Positions 53,230 to 60,874 of a stretch of 64,000 nt of DNA are shown piece by piece. A program made the translations under genes and the position numbers. Within the stretch, counting starts at the first letter, position 1, and each line of letters opens with the position of its first letter. Source of the DNA: Azoarcus sp. (GTDB lineage Bacteria > Pseudomonadota > Gammaproteobacteria > Burkholderiales > Rhodocyclaceae); the NCBI GenBank assembly GCA_031285965.1, contig JAITVD010000047.1:1-64000 (forward strand), written 5' to 3'. Under the pieces are notes generated by a model. The model did no database searches. It had not been told where the DNA came from and saw nothing but the letters and a program-made list of their open reading frames with translations.

Positions 53230-53528
53230 TTAGATGAGTTAAAGCCCACCGACAACAGGTTATGGATAGAACAGTGTCACGTATGAGAACGCTGGCATTG
53301 TGCACGGACAGAACTCGTAGCGCAATAAATTAGACAAAATAGGTAAAACACGGAATTGCAAGCAGGGCTTGCTCAGGTTAAAGCAGCCTCGTCGGCATAG
53401 CAGAATTTCAAAGCGAGTCGCAGTCCAGCCCCCCAACAATTTGACCTCGTCCTTTCACCTCGTGTAGGCTACGCGCCGTTTTGGCTTGCCATGCTGTTTT
53501 GGCGAGCAGAAACAAAAATTTCGCATTC
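53230..53528. other. leader region before the cobalamin riboswitch
   Basis: About 300 bases, A+T-rich on the left, with no supported gene. GCAAGC-AGG-GCTTGC near 53357-53371 is a small 6-bp hairpin. The promoter of the B12 uptake operon must lie here or just right of it, but no clear -35/-10 pair stands out. Confidence 0.35.
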
Positions 53529-53701
53529 TGGTGCTGCTGGTCTCTCGGCCAGCGGTTAAACGGGAAAGCGGTGCGCGTCTTTCTGGGCGCAATGCCGCTG
53601 CTGCCCCCGCAACGGTAAGCGAGTGAGGGTTCGCCTCTAGGCCACTGAGCGTTTTGCTTGGGAAGGCGGCGAATCAAGACTTGCAAGCCCGGATACCGGC
53701 C
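53529..53701 (+). promoter_or_regulatory. cobalamin riboswitch
   Basis: The conserved elements of the adenosylcobalamin riboswitch occur in order: GGTGCTGCTGG, GGTTAAACGGGAAAGCGGTG, the CTGCCCCCGCAACGGTAAG core, GCCACTGAG, GGGAAGGCGGCGAATC and the B12 box around AGCCCGGATACCGGCC. It precedes the TonB receptor gene by about 150 bases. ATCTCC at 53785-53790 can pair with GGAGAT at 53835-53840, the ribosome-binding site, so repression of translation when B12 is bound is plausible (inference). It probably controls the whole five-gene operon. Confidence 0.93.
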
Positions 53702-53848
53702 CGACGCGAACCGATGGACGTGCTGCGGGGCTGCGGCTCGCCGGTTCTCATCACCGACGCGCTGCCATGCAAAGCCCGTGCGGCATCTCCGTTTTTCATC
53801 ATCATGATTCCGGCTGCGGGGACGCAAACCGGATGGAGATAGATTGCC

Positions 53849-55915
53849 ATGCCAACGCGCAAATCCTTGCGGGCAGCCCTGTGCTTGCCTGCCGCCGTTT
53901 TTTCTTTGTATTCCCTGCCCTCTTTTGGCCAAGTTTCGTCCGAGCCGCCCGCAGCGCAACAGGCGCTTGATTCCCTTGATGAAGTGGTGGTGACGGCAAA
54001 CCGCGTACAGGAAGCCAAGCACGAAGTCAGCAGCAACGTTACCGTTATCGGTTCGGAAGAAATCAAGGCGTCGACAGCAACAACAGTCGCCGATTTGATG
54101 GCGCAGCATGGCTTTCATGTCGTAACGATGGGCGACAACAGCAATGTCCAGATACGCGGCATGGGCAGCCTGACGATGGCCAACGAGCTTGAAAACCAAG
54201 TGCTGATCCTGCTGAATGGCCGTCGGATTGGCTTAAGCAACTTGGCGCTTGCGGGGCTGGCGAACGTCAAGCAGGTCGAAATCATCCGTGGCGCTTCAGC
54301 CGTTCAGTACGGTTCCTCCGCGCTGGGCGGGGTCATCAACATCATCACCCGGCGCGGCGAAGCCGATAAACCGTTCCTGTCGATTGAAGCGGGCATCGGC
54401 AGTGATTCGCTGAAGCGCGAAACAGTTGCTTTTGGCGGCGCGGCGGACGGATTTGATTTTTCTTTCGGCGGGACGCATTTCAGCCGCGATGACGTGACGA
54501 CAGAAGGCGGGCGGCGCTGGTACAACACGGCAATCGACAAGAGCCTGACCTACGATTTGGACGTTGGCTACACCTTTGCTCAAAACCACCGCGTCGGAAT
54601 CAACCACGCTCAGGGCGAGACTCAATCTGAACTCACCTCAGGCATCCGCCCCTATGGCGGCAACACGCCCGCCAATCCCTACAGCGATTACCTCAAGCGC
54701 AACAAGAATACGGCGTTTTCCTATGCCGGATCGACGGACAGCAAAAACCTCGACTGGATGGTCAATTATTCTTTCGGAAGCACCGATCAGAAAGATACCG
54801 ACCCATCGACGGGGGCTGAAAGCTACCGGAGCGACATCGACAACAAGGTTTTCAACGCGCAGTTGAACTACAACGCCGCGCTGTTTTCAGTGTCCGGCGG
54901 GGTCGATCAATACCAGTACGACGTGTCCGGGTTCGGCAGCGCCCCGGAAACGACGATGAAAGATACCGGCGCTTATGTCACAGGCAAACTGCGCCTGCTC
55001 GATGAGCGGCTGGTTTTCTCGCTGGGCCTGCGCCACGACCGATACGAGAACTCAGGTACGGCAATGCTTTCCTATGATAACAACCATACGGGCGGCTCGG
55101 TGGGCGTCAGCTATTTGCCGCTCGATTGGCTGAAACTGCGCGCCAATTACGCCAGCGGCTTCAAAATGCCCTCGCCGCAGCAGATCGGCGGGGACGGCGC
55201 GATTTTTTACATGGGCAATCCGTCGCTCAAGCCCGAGCAAAACAAAACATGGGAACTGGGCGCGGATATTGACTGGCGTCACATCAATGCCAGCCTGACC
55301 TATTTTCGTTCAGACTGGCAAGACAAGATCGTTGGCATGCCCACTGGTATCCCATGCAACAATCTTTGGGGGATGAATTGCTACCAAAACCAGAACCTGA
55401 AAGAAGCGGAAATTGCCGGGTTTGAAGGTTCCGTGAGATGGGACATTGGCAAGGCGTTCAGCCAAAGCTACAGCCTCGCGCCCTACGCCAGCTTCACTTG
55501 GCTGACGACGCGAAAAAATAAGGATCCCTCGCAATTCATCGCGTATCACGGCGCGGGCAACACAACTCTGCCCAACACGCCCAAATGGATGGCAAGCTAC
55601 GGCCTCGACTACGCGCATCCGGGGCTGAAAATCAAAAGCCGCCTCAATGCCAATTATTACGGCGCAACGCTGACACGGGACTTTAGCGGGACAGTTCCCA
55701 TGCCAGCGGGCGATACCTATTTCTCGCGCCCAAGCGGCACGGTCGTCAATTGGAGCTTTGAGAAAGAACTGGCAGAGTTCAGCAATCGCCGCTATGGCGC
55801 GCTGACCCTGCGCGGCGAAATCAACAACCTGTTCGACAAGGCAAACGAGATGTACTGGAACTACCCCGGCGCGGGACGGAATTTCTACGTCGGGCTGCGC
55901 TATGACTTTAATTAA
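53849..55915 (+). CDS. btuB: TonB-dependent outer-membrane receptor, probable vitamin B12
   Basis: Receptor of 688 residues. A signal peptide (about 1-26) is followed by the TonB box LDEVVVTA, the plug domain (VADLMAQHGFHV, QVLILLNGRRIG, IIRGASAVQYGSSALGGVINIIT) and the barrel, which ends in the aromatic-rich FYVGLRYDFN. GGATGGAGAT just before the ATG is the ribosome-binding site. A riboswitch that binds cobalamin lies directly upstream and ABC transporter genes follow, so B12 or another corrinoid is the likely substrate. Confidence 0.9.
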   Translation: MPTRKSLRAALCLPAAVFSLYSLPSFGQVSSEPPAAQQALDSLDEVVVTANRVQEAKHEVSSNVTVIGSEEIKASTATTVADLMAQHGFHVVTMGDNSNVQIRGMGSLTMANELENQVLILLNGRRIGLSNLALAGLANVKQVEIIRGASAVQYGSSALGGVINIITRRGEADKPFLSIEAGIGSDSLKRETVAFGGAADGFDFSFGGTHFSRDDVTTEGGRRWYNTAIDKSLTYDLDVGYTFAQNHRVGINHAQGETQSELTSGIRPYGGNTPANPYSDYLKRNKNTAFSYAGSTDSKNLDWMVNYSFGSTDQKDTDPSTGAESYRSDIDNKVFNAQLNYNAALFSVSGGVDQYQYDVSGFGSAPETTMKDTGAYVTGKLRLLDERLVFSLGLRHDRYENSGTAMLSYDNNHTGGSVGVSYLPLDWLKLRANYASGFKMPSPQQIGGDGAIFYMGNPSLKPEQNKTWELGADIDWRHINASLTYFRSDWQDKIVGMPTGIPCNNLWGMNCYQNQNLKEAEIAGFEGSVRWDIGKAFSQSYSLAPYASFTWLTTRKNKDPSQFIAYHGAGNTTLPNTPKWMASYGLDYAHPGLKIKSRLNANYYGATLTRDFSGTVPMPAGDTYFSRPSGTVVNWSFEKELAEFSNRRYGALTLRGEINNLFDKANEMYWNYPGAGRNFYVGLRYDFN

Positions 55916-55933
55916 GGTTCCTTGCTGGCAAGC

Positions 55934-56746
55934 ATGAAAGGTTTCATCGCCCTCCTTGCCTTGCTGATTGCGCCGGCGGCTTTTTCCCAAGCGCCGGCGC
56001 AGCCGCCGCAGCGCATCGTTTCGCTTGATTTGTGCACGGACTGGATGCTGGCGCTGTATGTCGAACGGGAGCGCGTCGCGGCGCTCTCGCCGATGCAGCG
56101 CGTCCAGCAGCCGTTCCACCCTGCCCCGTGGATGAAAAACTCTTGGCCCGCGCACGACGGAAACCTAGAGAGCATCGCGCTGTACAAGCCCGACCTCATC
56201 CTGACCGGGCAATACGCCGCCATCGCCCTGCGCGAGCAGCTTCGCCGCCTAGGATTCCGGGTCGAAGTCCTGCCGCTGGCCACGACGCTTGAAGAAGTGC
56301 GTCGCTATGAACGCCAGTTCTTCGCCTATGTGGGGCTGCCGCCGGAACACACGGCAGACGGGCCGCCAGAGCGCGAGCACGGGGAAAAGCGTCTGCTGCT
56401 GCTCGGCGCGAACGCCATCGGAATGGGGCGCGATACGTTTGAGAACGCGCTTATGAACCACGCGGGCTGGCGCAACTACCTGACTGAGAGCGGCCTTGTC
56501 CGGCTCGACCTCGAACAAATCGCGCTCGACCCGCCGAATGCTGTGCTTTGGGCAACGCCAAGCGGCGCGGCGCTGGCAAACGCCTTTGCGGAACATCCTC
56601 TCTGGCGCAGCCTCAATCCTCCCCCGCCGCGCCTAGAAACTGACTACTGGCGCTGGCAATGCCCCGGCCCTTGGAGTTGGGGGCTGATACGGGAACTCGG
56701 GCGCCTCAAGCAACAAGCCGAAGAGCGCGGGGCGACTGCGCCATGA
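55934..56746 (+). CDS. btuF: periplasmic B12-binding protein (BtuF-like)
   Basis: Substrate-binding protein of 270 residues with a signal peptide (about 1-19, ending AAFS). The class III periplasmic-binding fold is indicated by QRIVSLDLCTDWMLALY and LESIALYKPDLILTGQYAA in the N-lobe. It would pass the ligand taken in by the receptor to the BtuCD-like transporter. An upstream in-frame TTG is rejected in favour of the ATG at 55934. It follows the receptor gene after 18 bases and its stop overlaps the permease start (ATGA). Confidence 0.85.
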   Translation: MKGFIALLALLIAPAAFSQAPAQPPQRIVSLDLCTDWMLALYVERERVAALSPMQRVQQPFHPAPWMKNSWPAHDGNLESIALYKPDLILTGQYAAIALREQLRRLGFRVEVLPLATTLEEVRRYERQFFAYVGLPPEHTADGPPEREHGEKRLLLLGANAIGMGRDTFENALMNHAGWRNYLTESGLVRLDLEQIALDPPNAVLWATPSGAALANAFAEHPLWRSLNPPPPRLETDYWRWQCPGPWSWGLIRELGRLKQQAEERGATAP

Positions 56747-57747
56747 ACTTCGCTGAAATCCGCATTCCACGCGCTTCTTTTTTCCTCTTCGCGGGGCTGC
56801 TGGCGGCTTTTTTCCTGTCGCTCGCCATTGGCTCCGCGCCAGTTCCCGTGCTGGGCGGACTGTTCGACTGGCTCATCGGCCAGCCGGGGCTGCCCGCCCT
56901 CGTCATGGGCGAAATCCGTTTGCCTCGCGCCCTGCTGGCGCTTTCCGTGGGCGCGGCGCTTGGGCTGTCCGGCGCGGCATTGCAAGGGCTGCTGCGCAAC
57001 CCCCTTGCCGACCCCAGCCTCACCGGCGCGAGCCAAGGCGCGGCGCTGGGCGCAGCATCCGTTTTCTATTTCGGCGTCCTGCCGGGGCTGGGCGTTTTCG
57101 CGCCCCTGTTGGCCGGACTGGCCGGGGCGGCGCTGGCGCTCCTCCTCACCCTCTGGCTTGCCGGGTCGGGCCGACCAGCGTTGCTGCTGCTTGCGGGGCT
57201 GGCTATCGCCTCCCTTTCCGGCGCGGCGCTGGCCGCCGTGCTCAACTTTGCCCCCAATCCTTTTGCCATGCAGGAACTCGTTTTCTGGCTGCTCGGTTCC
57301 GTTTCGGAACGCGGCATGGCGCATCTGGTTTTTCTCCTGCCCGCCCTCGTCATCGGCGGGGCGCTCATCTGGCGGCAGCGCCCGTTGCTGGCTGCCCTCT
57401 CCCTCGGCGAACAAGTCACTGCCAGCTTGGGGCTGGATGTTCGGCGCGGCGGGCGCATCGTCGTTTTGGGCGCGGCCATGCTGGTCGGCTCCGCTGTGGC
57501 TACCGCTGGAAACATCGGTTTTGTGGGGCTCATCGCCCCCCATCTGGCAAGGCCGCTGGCGCAAAACCGACCAGATCGTCTGCTTATTCCCGCCGCCGCT
57601 ATTGGCGCAACACTCGTGCTGCTCGCGGACATCGTCGCCCGCCTCATGCCACCGGGACGCGAAATCCGTCTGGGCGTTCTGACCGCGCTGATTGGCGCGC
57701 CCCTTTTCATTCGGCTCATCTGGAAAATGCGCAGAGAATGGCTCTAA
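56743..57747 (+). CDS. btuC: B12/FecCD-type ABC transporter permease
   Basis: Integral membrane protein of 334 residues with about ten helices of the FecCD/BtuC family. Family features include the GEIRLPRALLALSVGAALGLSGAALQGLLRNPLADP segment near the N-terminus (seen here in pieces), the ATAGNIGFVGLIAPHLAR loop that contacts the ATPase, and PPGREIRLGVLTALIGAPLFI at the end. The ATG at 56743 overlaps the btuF stop; the frame also opens 28 codons earlier inside btuF. It overlaps the next gene by ten bases. Confidence 0.92.
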   Translation: MNFAEIRIPRASFFLFAGLLAAFFLSLAIGSAPVPVLGGLFDWLIGQPGLPALVMGEIRLPRALLALSVGAALGLSGAALQGLLRNPLADPSLTGASQGAALGAASVFYFGVLPGLGVFAPLLAGLAGAALALLLTLWLAGSGRPALLLLAGLAIASLSGAALAAVLNFAPNPFAMQELVFWLLGSVSERGMAHLVFLLPALVIGGALIWRQRPLLAALSLGEQVTASLGLDVRRGGRIVVLGAAMLVGSAVATAGNIGFVGLIAPHLARPLAQNRPDRLLIPAAAIGATLVLLADIVARLMPPGREIRLGVLTALIGAPLFIRLIWKMRREWL

Positions 57748-58466
57748 TCGAAGTCAAAAACCTGACGCTGAAAGACCGCCTCGACTCCGTTTCCTTCTCG
57801 GTCGAACCGGGCGAGATGCTTGCCGTCATTGGACCGAACGGCGCGGGAAAATCCTCCCTGCTGCAAAGTCTGGCCGGACTGCTGCCCGCCAGCGGCGATA
57901 TTTTTCTGTCCGGCATTCCCCTGCGCGGCATCAAGCCCAACGAGCGGGCGCGGCAACTGGGCTTTCTGCCGCAATTCTGTGATAGCGCGTGGGCGCTGGC
58001 CGTTGAAGAAATCGTGGCATTGGGGCGGCTGCCTTGGCGCGACCGCGACCCCGAAGCCCTCCGGCAAGCCATGCGGGAAACCGGCATCGAGGGCATGGCG
58101 CGGAAAAGCATCAACCAGCTTTCCGGCGGCGAACAGGCGCGGGTATGGCTTGCTCGCGTGCTGGCTGGCACGCCGCAGGTTTTTCTTGCCGACGAACCCA
58201 TTGCCAGCCTCGACCTCTACTATCAGGGCAAAATCATGGACATCCTGCGCCAGCACGCGAGCGGGGCGCGCAGCGTCATCCTCGCCATCCATGACCTCGC
58301 GCTGGCGGCTCGCTACTGCGACCGCTTCTGCCTGCTCAAACAGGGACGCATCCATGCCTTCGGCTCGCCCGAAACCGTCCTCACCGAAGCGGCGCTCTCG
58401 GATGCCTTCGGCGTTCCCATCCATGTCGATTTGGCTCACTCCCCGCCCATCATCCTGCCCGCTTGA
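57738..58466 (+). CDS. btuD: B12/iron-type ABC transporter ATP-binding protein
   Basis: ATPase of 242 residues that powers the BtuC-like permease. Walker A is GPNGAGKSS, the Q-loop lies in GFLPQFC, the signature is LSGGEQARVWLARVL, Walker B is QVFLADEPIASLD and the H-loop is in ILAIHDLALA. It overlaps the permease gene by ten bases and ends nine bases before the adenosyltransferase-like gene, so all belong to one operon. Confidence 0.93.
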   Translation: MALIEVKNLTLKDRLDSVSFSVEPGEMLAVIGPNGAGKSSLLQSLAGLLPASGDIFLSGIPLRGIKPNERARQLGFLPQFCDSAWALAVEEIVALGRLPWRDRDPEALRQAMRETGIEGMARKSINQLSGGEQARVWLARVLAGTPQVFLADEPIASLDLYYQGKIMDILRQHASGARSVILAIHDLALAARYCDRFCLLKQGRIHAFGSPETVLTEAALSDAFGVPIHVDLAHSPPIILPA

Positions 58467-58474
58467 GCATTCCC

Positions 58475-59047
58475 ATGAAACCCGGCAAAAACCTGTCTGA
58501 GCTTTGCTACACCTACATCTTCGAGGCTTCGTGGCTCTGCGACTATGAAGTCGCCACCGACGAGCTTTGCGCCCAGCTTGGCATGGCGTTTTCCGCTGCC
58601 GAGGCGGATGCCGGGCTGCATGACACCCTGCCCGACCTTGAACGCCTTCAGGCGCTCGCCCTGCACGCCAATGGTTCCATTCGGGGAAAACTTGCCGTGA
58701 CGGAAGCCGACCTTGATTGGCTCCACGCGCGTTACGCGCACTTCCAGCAAGAGATTGAAGCCCGCGAGCCGAATCGCCTCAAAAACTTCGTCCTCCCACG
58801 CGGCATCGCCCCTGTGCCGGAACTGCACCAAGCGCGTTCCACGGCCAAAAAAGCCCTGCGATGCCTTGTCCGCTTGGAAAGCGAACAGGCGGAGCGCGTC
58901 CGGCGGGCAATCCCCCCGGAAATCCCCCGCTTCCTCAACCTGCTCTGCAACTTCTGCTTCCTGCTCGCCGTCCTCATCAACCAGCGCCGCAAAACCGGCG
59001 AGCCACTTTTCATGAGCCAAAGCTACAAAATGAAGGAACGGCACTGA
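58475..59047 (+). CDS. divergent PduO-type cobalamin adenosyltransferase-like protein
   Basis: Protein of 190 residues. Family-like segments of the PduO-type ATP:cob(I)alamin adenosyltransferase are present in the right order: TDEL (28-31), FVLPRG (105-110), ARSTAKKALR (120-129, in place of ARTxxRRAER) and FLNLLCNFCFLLA (153-165). The N-terminal TRTGDxGxT ATP-binding loop is missing, replaced by the CYTYIFEASWLCDY region. The enzyme would normally turn imported cobalamin into adenosylcobalamin, the riboswitch ligand. Here it may be catalytically altered or act as a corrinoid-binding helper. It lies nine bases after the ABC ATPase gene. ATG at 58475 is preferred over a TTG at 58463. Confidence 0.7.
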   Translation: MKPGKNLSELCYTYIFEASWLCDYEVATDELCAQLGMAFSAAEADAGLHDTLPDLERLQALALHANGSIRGKLAVTEADLDWLHARYAHFQQEIEAREPNRLKNFVLPRGIAPVPELHQARSTAKKALRCLVRLESEQAERVRRAIPPEIPRFLNLLCNFCFLLAVLINQRRKTGEPLFMSQSYKMKERH

Positions 59048-59110
59048 TAGTGTCGCAAAAAGCAGCAAAAAAGAGGTAAGCTACGCAGTTGAACTTTTTT
59101 GGTATTTGTA

Positions 59111-60874
59111 ATGTCTAAGCAGGTTTCTTCATTAAACCAACCCGCATCCCATACAGATTCGTCCGGTGTTTCAGAGCCTCTTTCCGCAAAACGTACCGAC
59201 TGGGCGGGGCTAGGCTGGCTATATCTATTTTTCTGGTATTTTTCCGGCGTCATGCAGACTTTGCTGATTCCATCCAATGGAATCGAAGGTTTTCGCTGTG
59301 CGTTTTTCATGAGCTTTATGTGGTTTGCTCCCGTTCTGCTATTTCCTCGTTATACCAAGCAAATTTGCGCAGTCATTGGAATCATTCTTTGGGCTGTTTC
59401 AATTACAAGCCTGAGCTACTGGTATATCTATGGAAGCGAATTCTCACAAAGCACCCTTTTTATTATTTTTGAGACAACCGCGCAAGAATCTCAAGAATAT
59501 ATCAGCCAATACATCACTTTTCCTTTAGTGCTTGGCACTATTTTATACACGACTGTTGCCTATTTTCTTTATAAACGTTTGCGCCCAGTGCGCTTGTCAC
59601 GCCCTTACGCAATAGGCTTTGCGTTCGCCGTGCTTCTCCTGAATCTTGGCGAACCTCACTTCAAATATCTCACTGGCAGAACAACCTTTGAAAGCGCCAC
59701 AAACAAATTGCTGAGGCGCATGGAACCCGCCGCGCCGTGGCAGTTTTTGATGAGTTATATTCAATACAAGGTTCAGCTTTCCAACGTCCGCACTTTCCTT
59801 AAAAATAATTCCTCTTTGCCCCCTTTGGGCAATCTCATTGACCGCTCTGGGGATACGCCGCGCACAGTAGTGCTGGTTATCGGAGAATCCACAACCCGCC
59901 GCCGCATGAGCCTGTATGGCTATCCGCGCAAAACAACGCCAAAACTGGATGCGCTGAAAGAAAAAGGGGATTTATTTGTTTTTAATGATGTCATTACCCC
60001 TCGTCCCTATACATTTGAAGTATTGAAGCTGGCTTTAAGTTTTGCCAGCCAAGAAGAAGAGGGACGCTATCTGACTGAGCCAAACATGATGAATCTCATG
60101 AACCAGGCAGGGTACAAAATGTTTTGGATTACAAACCAGCAAGTCCTCCGCGAAGGCAATGCCTTGCAGACTTCGTTTTCGCAACAAGCAAACGCAGCAA
60201 AATATCTGAACAATAACCGTCTCCAGAATGCCTCGCTGCCCGACCAAGTGGTTTTTGAGCCTTTCTCAGAGGTATTGCTCGACCCCGCGCCCAAAAAATT
60301 TATTGTTCTGCATTTGCTGGGTACGCACGCAAAATATTCCCTTCGCTATACAGAGGAATACGATGTATTCACGGGGCGCGACCACGTCCCGGAAAACCTC
60401 TCAGACAGCCAAGCCGAAAGATTCAACAGCTACGACAATGCTGTGCTCTATAACGATTTCGTCGTCTCAAGCCTGATTGATATTTTTTCAAAAAGCCAGC
60501 AAAACGGCTTTTTGGTTTATTTTTCCGACCACGGCGAAGAAGTTTTCAATGACCCCAAGCACGAGATATTAGGCCGAAACGAATACCATCCGACACTGGA
60601 TATGTATGCCGTTCCTTTTATGCTTTGGATGACTCCTGAATGGAAAAAAACGCATTCCCTCAATCTTGGCTCAATGCGCGACCGACCTTACAGCAACGAA
60701 CATTTTATTCACACTTTATCCGATTTAGCAGGCTTGAGCTATGACCGCTTCCGACCCGAAATGAGCTTAGTCAATTCGGGCTTCAAACCCCATACCCGCT
60801 GGATTGGCAATCCAAAATCCAAAAGCGGATTGCACGATTTCGATGCCATCGAACTGAATAAGCCTTTGCCGTAA
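59111..60874 (+). CDS. CptA/EptA-like phosphoethanolamine transferase
   Basis: Membrane enzyme of 587 residues in the sulfatase-like superfamily. The N-terminal part has about five membrane helices (to about residue 180), and the periplasmic catalytic domain starts near 250. GESTTRRRMSLYGYPR (259-273) contains the metal-binding Glu and the Thr that accepts phosphoethanolamine; SDHGEE supplies further zinc ligands. The motif is closer to CptA (LPS core) than to EptA (lipid A), but the acceptor cannot be fixed. The gene is visibly more A+T-rich than its left neighbours and marks the start of an accessory stretch. Confidence 0.82.
   Translation: MSKQVSSLNQPASHTDSSGVSEPLSAKRTDWAGLGWLYLFFWYFSGVMQTLLIPSNGIEGFRCAFFMSFMWFAPVLLFPRYTKQICAVIGIILWAVSITSLSYWYIYGSEFSQSTLFIIFETTAQESQEYISQYITFPLVLGTILYTTVAYFLYKRLRPVRLSRPYAIGFAFAVLLLNLGEPHFKYLTGRTTFESATNKLLRRMEPAAPWQFLMSYIQYKVQLSNVRTFLKNNSSLPPLGNLIDRSGDTPRTVVLVIGESTTRRRMSLYGYPRKTTPKLDALKEKGDLFVFNDVITPRPYTFEVLKLALSFASQEEEGRYLTEPNMMNLMNQAGYKMFWITNQQVLREGNALQTSFSQQANAAKYLNNNRLQNASLPDQVVFEPFSEVLLDPAPKKFIVLHLLGTHAKYSLRYTEEYDVFTGRDHVPENLSDSQAERFNSYDNAVLYNDFVVSSLIDIFSKSQQNGFLVYFSDHGEEVFNDPKHEILGRNEYHPTLDMYAVPFMLWMTPEWKKTHSLNLGSMRDRPYSNEHFIHTLSDLAGLSYDRFRPEMSLVNSGFKPHTRWIGNPKSKSGLHDFDAIELNKPLP

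Follow-up and report, generated by a model that had tools for sequence, protein, structure and literature searches.

The last gene of a riboswitch-controlled operon for cobalamin uptake encodes a PduO-like protein of 190 amino acids (aa) that lacks the ATP-binding loop, is confirmed on sequence evidence as a member of a discrete conserved clade and not a decayed copy, and most likely acts as a carrier receiving imported B12 rather than as an adenosylating enzyme. Within the papers and models searched, this clade is a previously unrecognised branch of the B12-adenosylating enzymes, no description of it having been found in those models or in the literature outside subscription journals. The observation in the initial annotation of such a loop-less protein at the end of a B12 operon is confirmed, and the finding is larger than had been seen there. 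The operon lies in the window, i.e., the whole stretch of 64,000 nucleotides (nt) analysed, and its designation as a riboswitch-controlled B12 uptake operon proved real, with a riboswitch of 110 bits followed by genes for a TonB receptor, a substrate-binding protein, a FecCD permease and an ABC ATPase (Table 1). Pfam gives no firm assignment for the strongly diverged protein encoded at 55922-56746, whose designation as BtuF-like comes from gene order and relatives. The host belongs to the Rhodocyclaceae/Zoogloeaceae and probably imports B12, and a contig scan revealed two close relatives in the MAGs 'Azoarcus sp. Pmx449_bin12' and 'Zoogloeaceae Nc350_bin138'. A terminator 3' of the loop-less gene did not emerge, the RNA fold being no better than that of shuffled sequences. 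Directly 3' of the loop-less gene, at 59099-60874 of the window, a sulfatase-family protein is encoded, possibly of the membrane phosphoethanolamine-transferase type; a homologue is also located near the loop-less gene in locus L092, but behind a gene of opposite orientation.

Table 1. Features of the cobalamin uptake operon and of its terminal loop-less gene (positions in the window; residue fractions refer to 62 aligned clade proteins)
Feature	Position	Strand	Basis or conservation
Cobalamin riboswitch, controls the operon	53512..53717	+	Rfam RF00174, 110.4 bits, E 8.7e-27
TonB receptor	53849..55915	+	Pfam Plug and TonB_dep_Rec; NCBIfam TonB-B12 138 bits (below model cut-off)
BtuF-like substrate-binding protein, divergent	55922..56746	+	Gene order and orthologues at the same place in relatives; family matches weak
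BtuC-like permease	56743..57747	+	Pfam FecCD 249 bits; NCBIfam BtuC model 175 bits (below cut-off)
BtuD-like ATPase	57738..58466	+	Pfam ABC_tran
ATP-loop-less PduO-like protein, 190 aa, last gene of the operon	58475..59047	+	Pfam Cob_adeno_trans; clade alignment and tree
Clade-specific N-terminal segment CYTYIFEASWLCDYEVATDE, residues 11-30, in place of the ATP loop	58505..58564	+	Y12, D23, E25, D29, E30 62/62
Clade motif H-x-N-G-S-x-R-G, residues 64-71	58664..58687	+	N66, G67, S68, R70, G71 62/62; H64 60/62
FVLPRG, residues 105-110, Phe105 = human Phe170	58787..58804	+	62/62 conserved
R121-xxx-KKALR129 = human R186...R190 R191 A192 E193 R194	58835..58861	+	Alignment, 62 members

The open reading frame begins with an ATG at 58475 and ends with the stop at 59047. 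The PduO-family segments noticed earlier are borne out by the match of residues 27-167 to Pfam Cob_adeno_trans (PF01923; 50.2 bits, cut-off 24), the sole family above cut-off, with PF02572 (BtuR/CobO) remaining unmatched. Because this alignment enters the profile only at position 31, the N-terminal ATP loop must be missing, and the reported absence of TRTGDxGxT thus holds, extending to 62 of 62 relatives; KKALR in place of RRAER is likewise present, at residues 125-129. With the NCBIfam adenosyltransferase equivalog TIGR00636, the protein scores 48.2 bits and two Vibrionaceae clade members 57 and 69.5 bits, all below the cut-off of 108. An alternative N-terminus restoring the ATP loop was rejected, since the only in-frame start codon 5' of 58475 is a TTG at 58463 (the frame there reads PRAGGSLLRPLLPAQTGTHP...), codons for T-[KR]-T-G-D in a row are absent from the entire window, and relatives have the same MKPGKN..EL(C)Y start. 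An AlphaFold model built from three sequences only reached a pLDDT of 59, and with this low-confidence model the 44 best PDB matches in Foldseek were all PduO-type proteins or scaffolds derived or engineered from them, at a best E of only 0.013, a probability of up to 1.00 and TM of 0.37-0.49 by query. The model says only that nothing but PduO-type structures appears to match well.

Residues were compared between 62 distinct clade proteins and 71 canonical proteins using the numbering of human adenosyltransferase (ATR), whose sequence was checked against 2IDX. The T-[KR]-T-G-D-x-G-[TS] loop is found in none of the 62 clade members and in 71/71 canonical proteins, its conservation in the latter being by construction as they were picked by the T-x-T-G-D motif. 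Gly63, Asp64, Gly66 and Ser68 of the loop are missing in all 62, and Lys78 is replaced by Glu or Asp, with an uncertain alignment at this position next to the deletion. Arg190 and Glu193, each present in 71/71 canonical proteins, are changed throughout the clade to Lys and to V/I/L/F, respectively; Ser217 is replaced by A/C/V/G and Asp218 by Asn, again in 62/62. In human ATR, the contacts with ATP or PPPi are made by Gly63, Ser68, Lys78, Arg190, Glu193, Arg194, Asn214 and Ser217, whereas Phe170 lies under the cobalt, 3.6 A away, in the base-off complex (PMC8633584), and Arg186 contacts both ligands (PMC9262797). Phe170, Arg194, Asn214 and Asp90 are kept in every clade protein aligned, and Arg186 and His183 in 60 each. 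By this residue comparison, it is mainly the ATP half of the active site that is gone, with the corrinoid half there. Residues 68-80 of human ATR form a roof over ATP, and the AdoCbl-bound structure is resolved only after residue 79 (PMC8633584), hence the ATP-ordered hairpin 68-80 is disordered in that state and its deletion is compatible with corrinoid binding.

The clade has also acquired invariant residues of its own, including Y12, D23, E25, N66, S68, R70, K125, N159 and S181, and at residues 64 and 66, where canonical proteins have D and G, it carries H and N. A conserved cysteine as cobalt ligand was rejected, since no Cys is invariant among the relatives (residue 11 is A/S in some, residue 22 is T in some and residue 32 is S in 6/62). 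Bacillota members are not among the 62 proteins; in the Lysinibacillus protein, the Asn214 position is apparently occupied by G, and the Enterococcus protein is more divergent still.

A profile built from 14 relatives, when searched in order, class and phylum samples, separated clade members (144-336 bits) from canonical proteins (at most 67 bits) with a clean gap. The clade occurs in 73/150 Vibrionaceae-type genomes, in some members of other gammaproteobacterial and betaproteobacterial families, in Aeromonas, and in Lysinibacillus fusiformis and Enterococcus faecalis of the Bacillota, with phyla beyond Pseudomonadota sampled through plasmid records. In a tree based on the helical domain, leaving out the N-terminal loop columns, it forms a group apart from 49 canonical ATRs (support 100/100), and remains whole upon addition of Bacillota and Aeromonas rows, the Bacillota branches being long. 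Being fixed across 62 relatives, the substitution pattern is far beyond chance, and dN/dS values among relatives of 0.03-0.20, where computable (0.03 for the Vibrio pair L100/L101), reveal purifying selection on the loop-less protein.

The genomic context was examined at 48 loci chosen by protein match and not by context. A TonB receptor and/or a FecCD-type importer adjoins the gene in 42/48, one locus is at a contig end, and a cobalamin riboswitch above the Rfam threshold is present in 28/48; as the loci are related, these counts are not independent, and the variety of arrangements speaks more strongly. With X denoting the loop-less gene, these arrangements comprise riboswitch-btuB-F-C-D-X; riboswitch-receptor-binding protein-X; trmA opposite X followed by riboswitch-btuB (Vibrionaceae genera g660 and g663); X divergent from btuFCD-type operons (g665, g668 and one g491); receptor-importer-X (g669); hutWXZ-X opposite tonB-exbBD-hutBCD (seven Vibrio-type loci, hutW uncalled in one); and riboswitch-X-substrate-binding protein (Lysinibacillus). 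The question raised at the outset, whether the clade always follows btuCD, hence receives a qualified answer, because some members neighbour only btuB, others are divergent from btuFCD or follow hutWXZ in Vibrio, and 5/48 loci have no transport neighbour (G370; G047 and G102, both behind a tldD-like gene; Enterococcus; Aeromonas). Within the genus of the host, 6/6 genomes that encode the orthologous BtuC also hold the loop-less gene, versus 2/6 of those that do not (one-sided Fisher p about 0.03).

Several individual loci show features of their own. In Azospira sp. I09, the complete riboswitch-btuBFCD-loop-less-gene operon is plasmid-borne, on a conjugative IncP replicon (L191, NZ_AP021845, 949-7138), with a second, opposite riboswitch and metE nearby, constituting a mobile B12-uptake island. 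In Aeromonas caviae (L196, 7689-9140), an IS66-type transposase gene is situated directly behind the loop-less gene, where btuB is expected. In two genomes of one genus (L090, 4672-6939; L091, 3244-5262), the gene lies directly behind a TldD-like gene with no importer, and its product is without Arg186. The record CP031730 (L194), named as a Stenotrophomonas rhizophila plasmid, contains the sporulation gene ytvI and the gene order of a Lysinibacillus plasmid, and is probably mislabelled or contaminated.

Concerning whether a second, canonical BtuR or PduO accompanies the loop-less protein, the genome under study does have a canonical PduO on contig 34 (204 bits), and no BtuR (PF02572) was found in it. 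All carrier genomes checked hold a canonical BtuR and/or PduO, fragmentary in one (G102), and the four Vibrio carriers tested have BtuR only, with no canonical PduO. B12-binding enzyme domains are present in 18/18 carriers tested and CbiC is absent in 17/18, so these carriers most likely import B12.

In Vibrio, a fourth gene behind hutWXZ encodes a clade member (L100, 8442-9002; L192, 6001-6534). The assignment to Vibrio is inferred from the hut locus, the similarity of HutZ to the solved HutZ 3TGV and a V. campbellii record with the same arrangement, and HutW, HutX and HutZ of L100 score above their NCBIfam cut-offs. The V. cholerae hut operon has been described as containing three genes only (PMC6775658), and no description of the fourth gene was found in the literature outside subscription journals. 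In the tree, the hut-linked proteins form one long branch inside the loop-less clade, and they might perform the same acceptor role for heme or still for cobalamin.

From its residues and gene neighbourhood, we consider the loop-less protein to be, by a narrow measure, probably a cytosolic, ATP-independent acceptor or chaperone for base-off corrinoid (tetrapyrrole), coupled to import and built on the trimeric PduO fold. It would form the PduO trimer, take up cobalamin arriving through BtuCD and bind it between subunits in the base-off state, above Phe105, with the upper face of the pocket open owing to deletion of the ATP hairpin; from there, the cobalamin would pass to the true adenosyltransferase or straight to a B12-dependent enzyme. 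Among the functions suggested initially, that of a chaperone is well supported by the loss of ATP-side residues in every relative, the retention of corrinoid-side residues and the separate canonical PduO, while that of an inhibitor is disfavoured by Vibrio carriers with only the unrelated BtuR. Two residues that touch ATP in human ATR, Arg194 and Asn214, persist in the clade, so the ligand could be phosphorylated or a nucleotide. Human ATR binds cobalamin more tightly when ATP or PPPi is present, and substitution of Arg190 or Glu193 lowers its AdoCbl affinity 40- to 120-fold (PMC8633584); as both residues are changed in the clade, the pocket there might have a low corrinoid affinity if the new N-terminal motif does not make up for the loss. 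Speaking against an acceptor of B12 are the position of the Vibrio hut branch with heme genes, the five loci without a transport neighbour and the low confidence of the fold model. More tentatively, the clade as a whole could represent an unnamed, widespread non-catalytic PduO-fold family serving as cytosolic receiving partner of TonB/FecCD-type tetrapyrrole importers, with cobalamin as the ligand in most lineages of the two phyla and heme in the Vibrio hut branch.

The main rival to this acceptor role, although we regard it as unlikely, is an upper-ligand processing enzyme that strips imported cobalamin of its cyano, methyl or adenosyl group ahead of the canonical adenosyltransferase, using the new N-terminal motif or conserved H64/K125/Cys as a functional analogue of MMACHC/CblC. 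The position right after the importer suits such an enzyme, and the upper (ATP) face, rebuilt with invariant Y12, D23, E25 and N66-G67-S68-R70, seemingly offers more than a passive carrier needs; the BtuM transporter is described as coupling import with decyanation (PMC6072759). The lack of an invariant cysteine argues against it. A transferase that draws on a donor other than ATP, be it a different nucleotide or some other cofactor, would account for the fixed replacement motif and for Arg194, Asn214 and the Lys at 190 in 62/62, yet is improbable, given that the loop, Lys78, Glu193 and Ser217, which hold the triphosphate and adenine, are gone in 62/62 and the neighbouring genes point to no candidate donor.

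An inhibitor or regulator tuning AdoCbl production through mixed trimers with canonical PduO would draw on the same fold, a probably shared trimer interface (Asp90 of DEL invariant, Arg186 nearly so) and the canonical PduO of the same genome. This is quite improbable, because the four Vibrio carriers tested have only BtuR, of a different family, and nevertheless maintain the protein by strong purifying selection (dN/dS 0.03 for L100/L101), and because the adjacency to importers rather than to pduO would be left unexplained. That heme or general tetrapyrrole handling is ancestral and cobalamin secondary is slightly less credible still: the seven loci directly behind hutWXZ suggest it, but they form a single long branch within the clade, and the importers at the other linked loci, among them the single linked locus of the Bacillota, are of B12 type or unassigned, frequently accompanied by cobalamin riboswitches. 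The loss of catalytic residues would also be expected of a decaying, functionless adenosyltransferase duplicate, an explanation of practically negligible probability that is rejected by the dN/dS values and by motifs that do not vary within the clade and can be made out in both phyla.

Humans possess dedicated B12 chaperones. To our knowledge, no B12 chaperone is recognised in bacteria, and we know of no established route from imported B12 to the cytosolic enzymes. The loop-less clade provides a concrete, riboswitch-linked candidate for such a chaperone that is testable in cultured hosts and, if the proposal is true, would parallel in bacteria the chaperones that traffic cobalamin in mammals. 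Furthermore, a protein can carry the annotation 'ATP--cob(I)alamin adenosyltransferase', as one does in Azospira, and yet be without an ATP site, which affects predictions of which organisms make coenzyme B12. Compared with PduO-type ATRs (PF01923, TIGR00636; human MMAB/ATR), the clade shares a homologous fold from helix 1 on, as indicated by the Pfam match and by hhalign (99.6%) and, on the low-confidence model, suggested by the Foldseek matches, together with the retained Phe170, Arg186, Arg194, Asn214, Asp90 and His183, but differs in the deleted ATP loop, the changes at Arg190, Glu193, Ser217 and Asp218, scores below the equivalog cut-off, its separate place in the tree and its encoding with importers. 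The processing chaperone MMACHC/CblC may occupy a similar place in the pathway as the first cytosolic acceptor after import, but has no sequence similarity to the 190-aa protein in the searches run and has a different fold. HutX/ChuX, a cytosolic heme carrier likewise encoded with a tetrapyrrole importer and adjoined by the Vibrio clade copies, belongs to a family unrelated to the clade and binds heme. The proposed holding and handing-on of base-off cobalamin most resembles human ATR in its role as AdoCbl escort to methylmalonyl-CoA mutase (PMC8633584), except that human ATR also makes AdoCbl, whereas the loop-less clade is without the ATP side.
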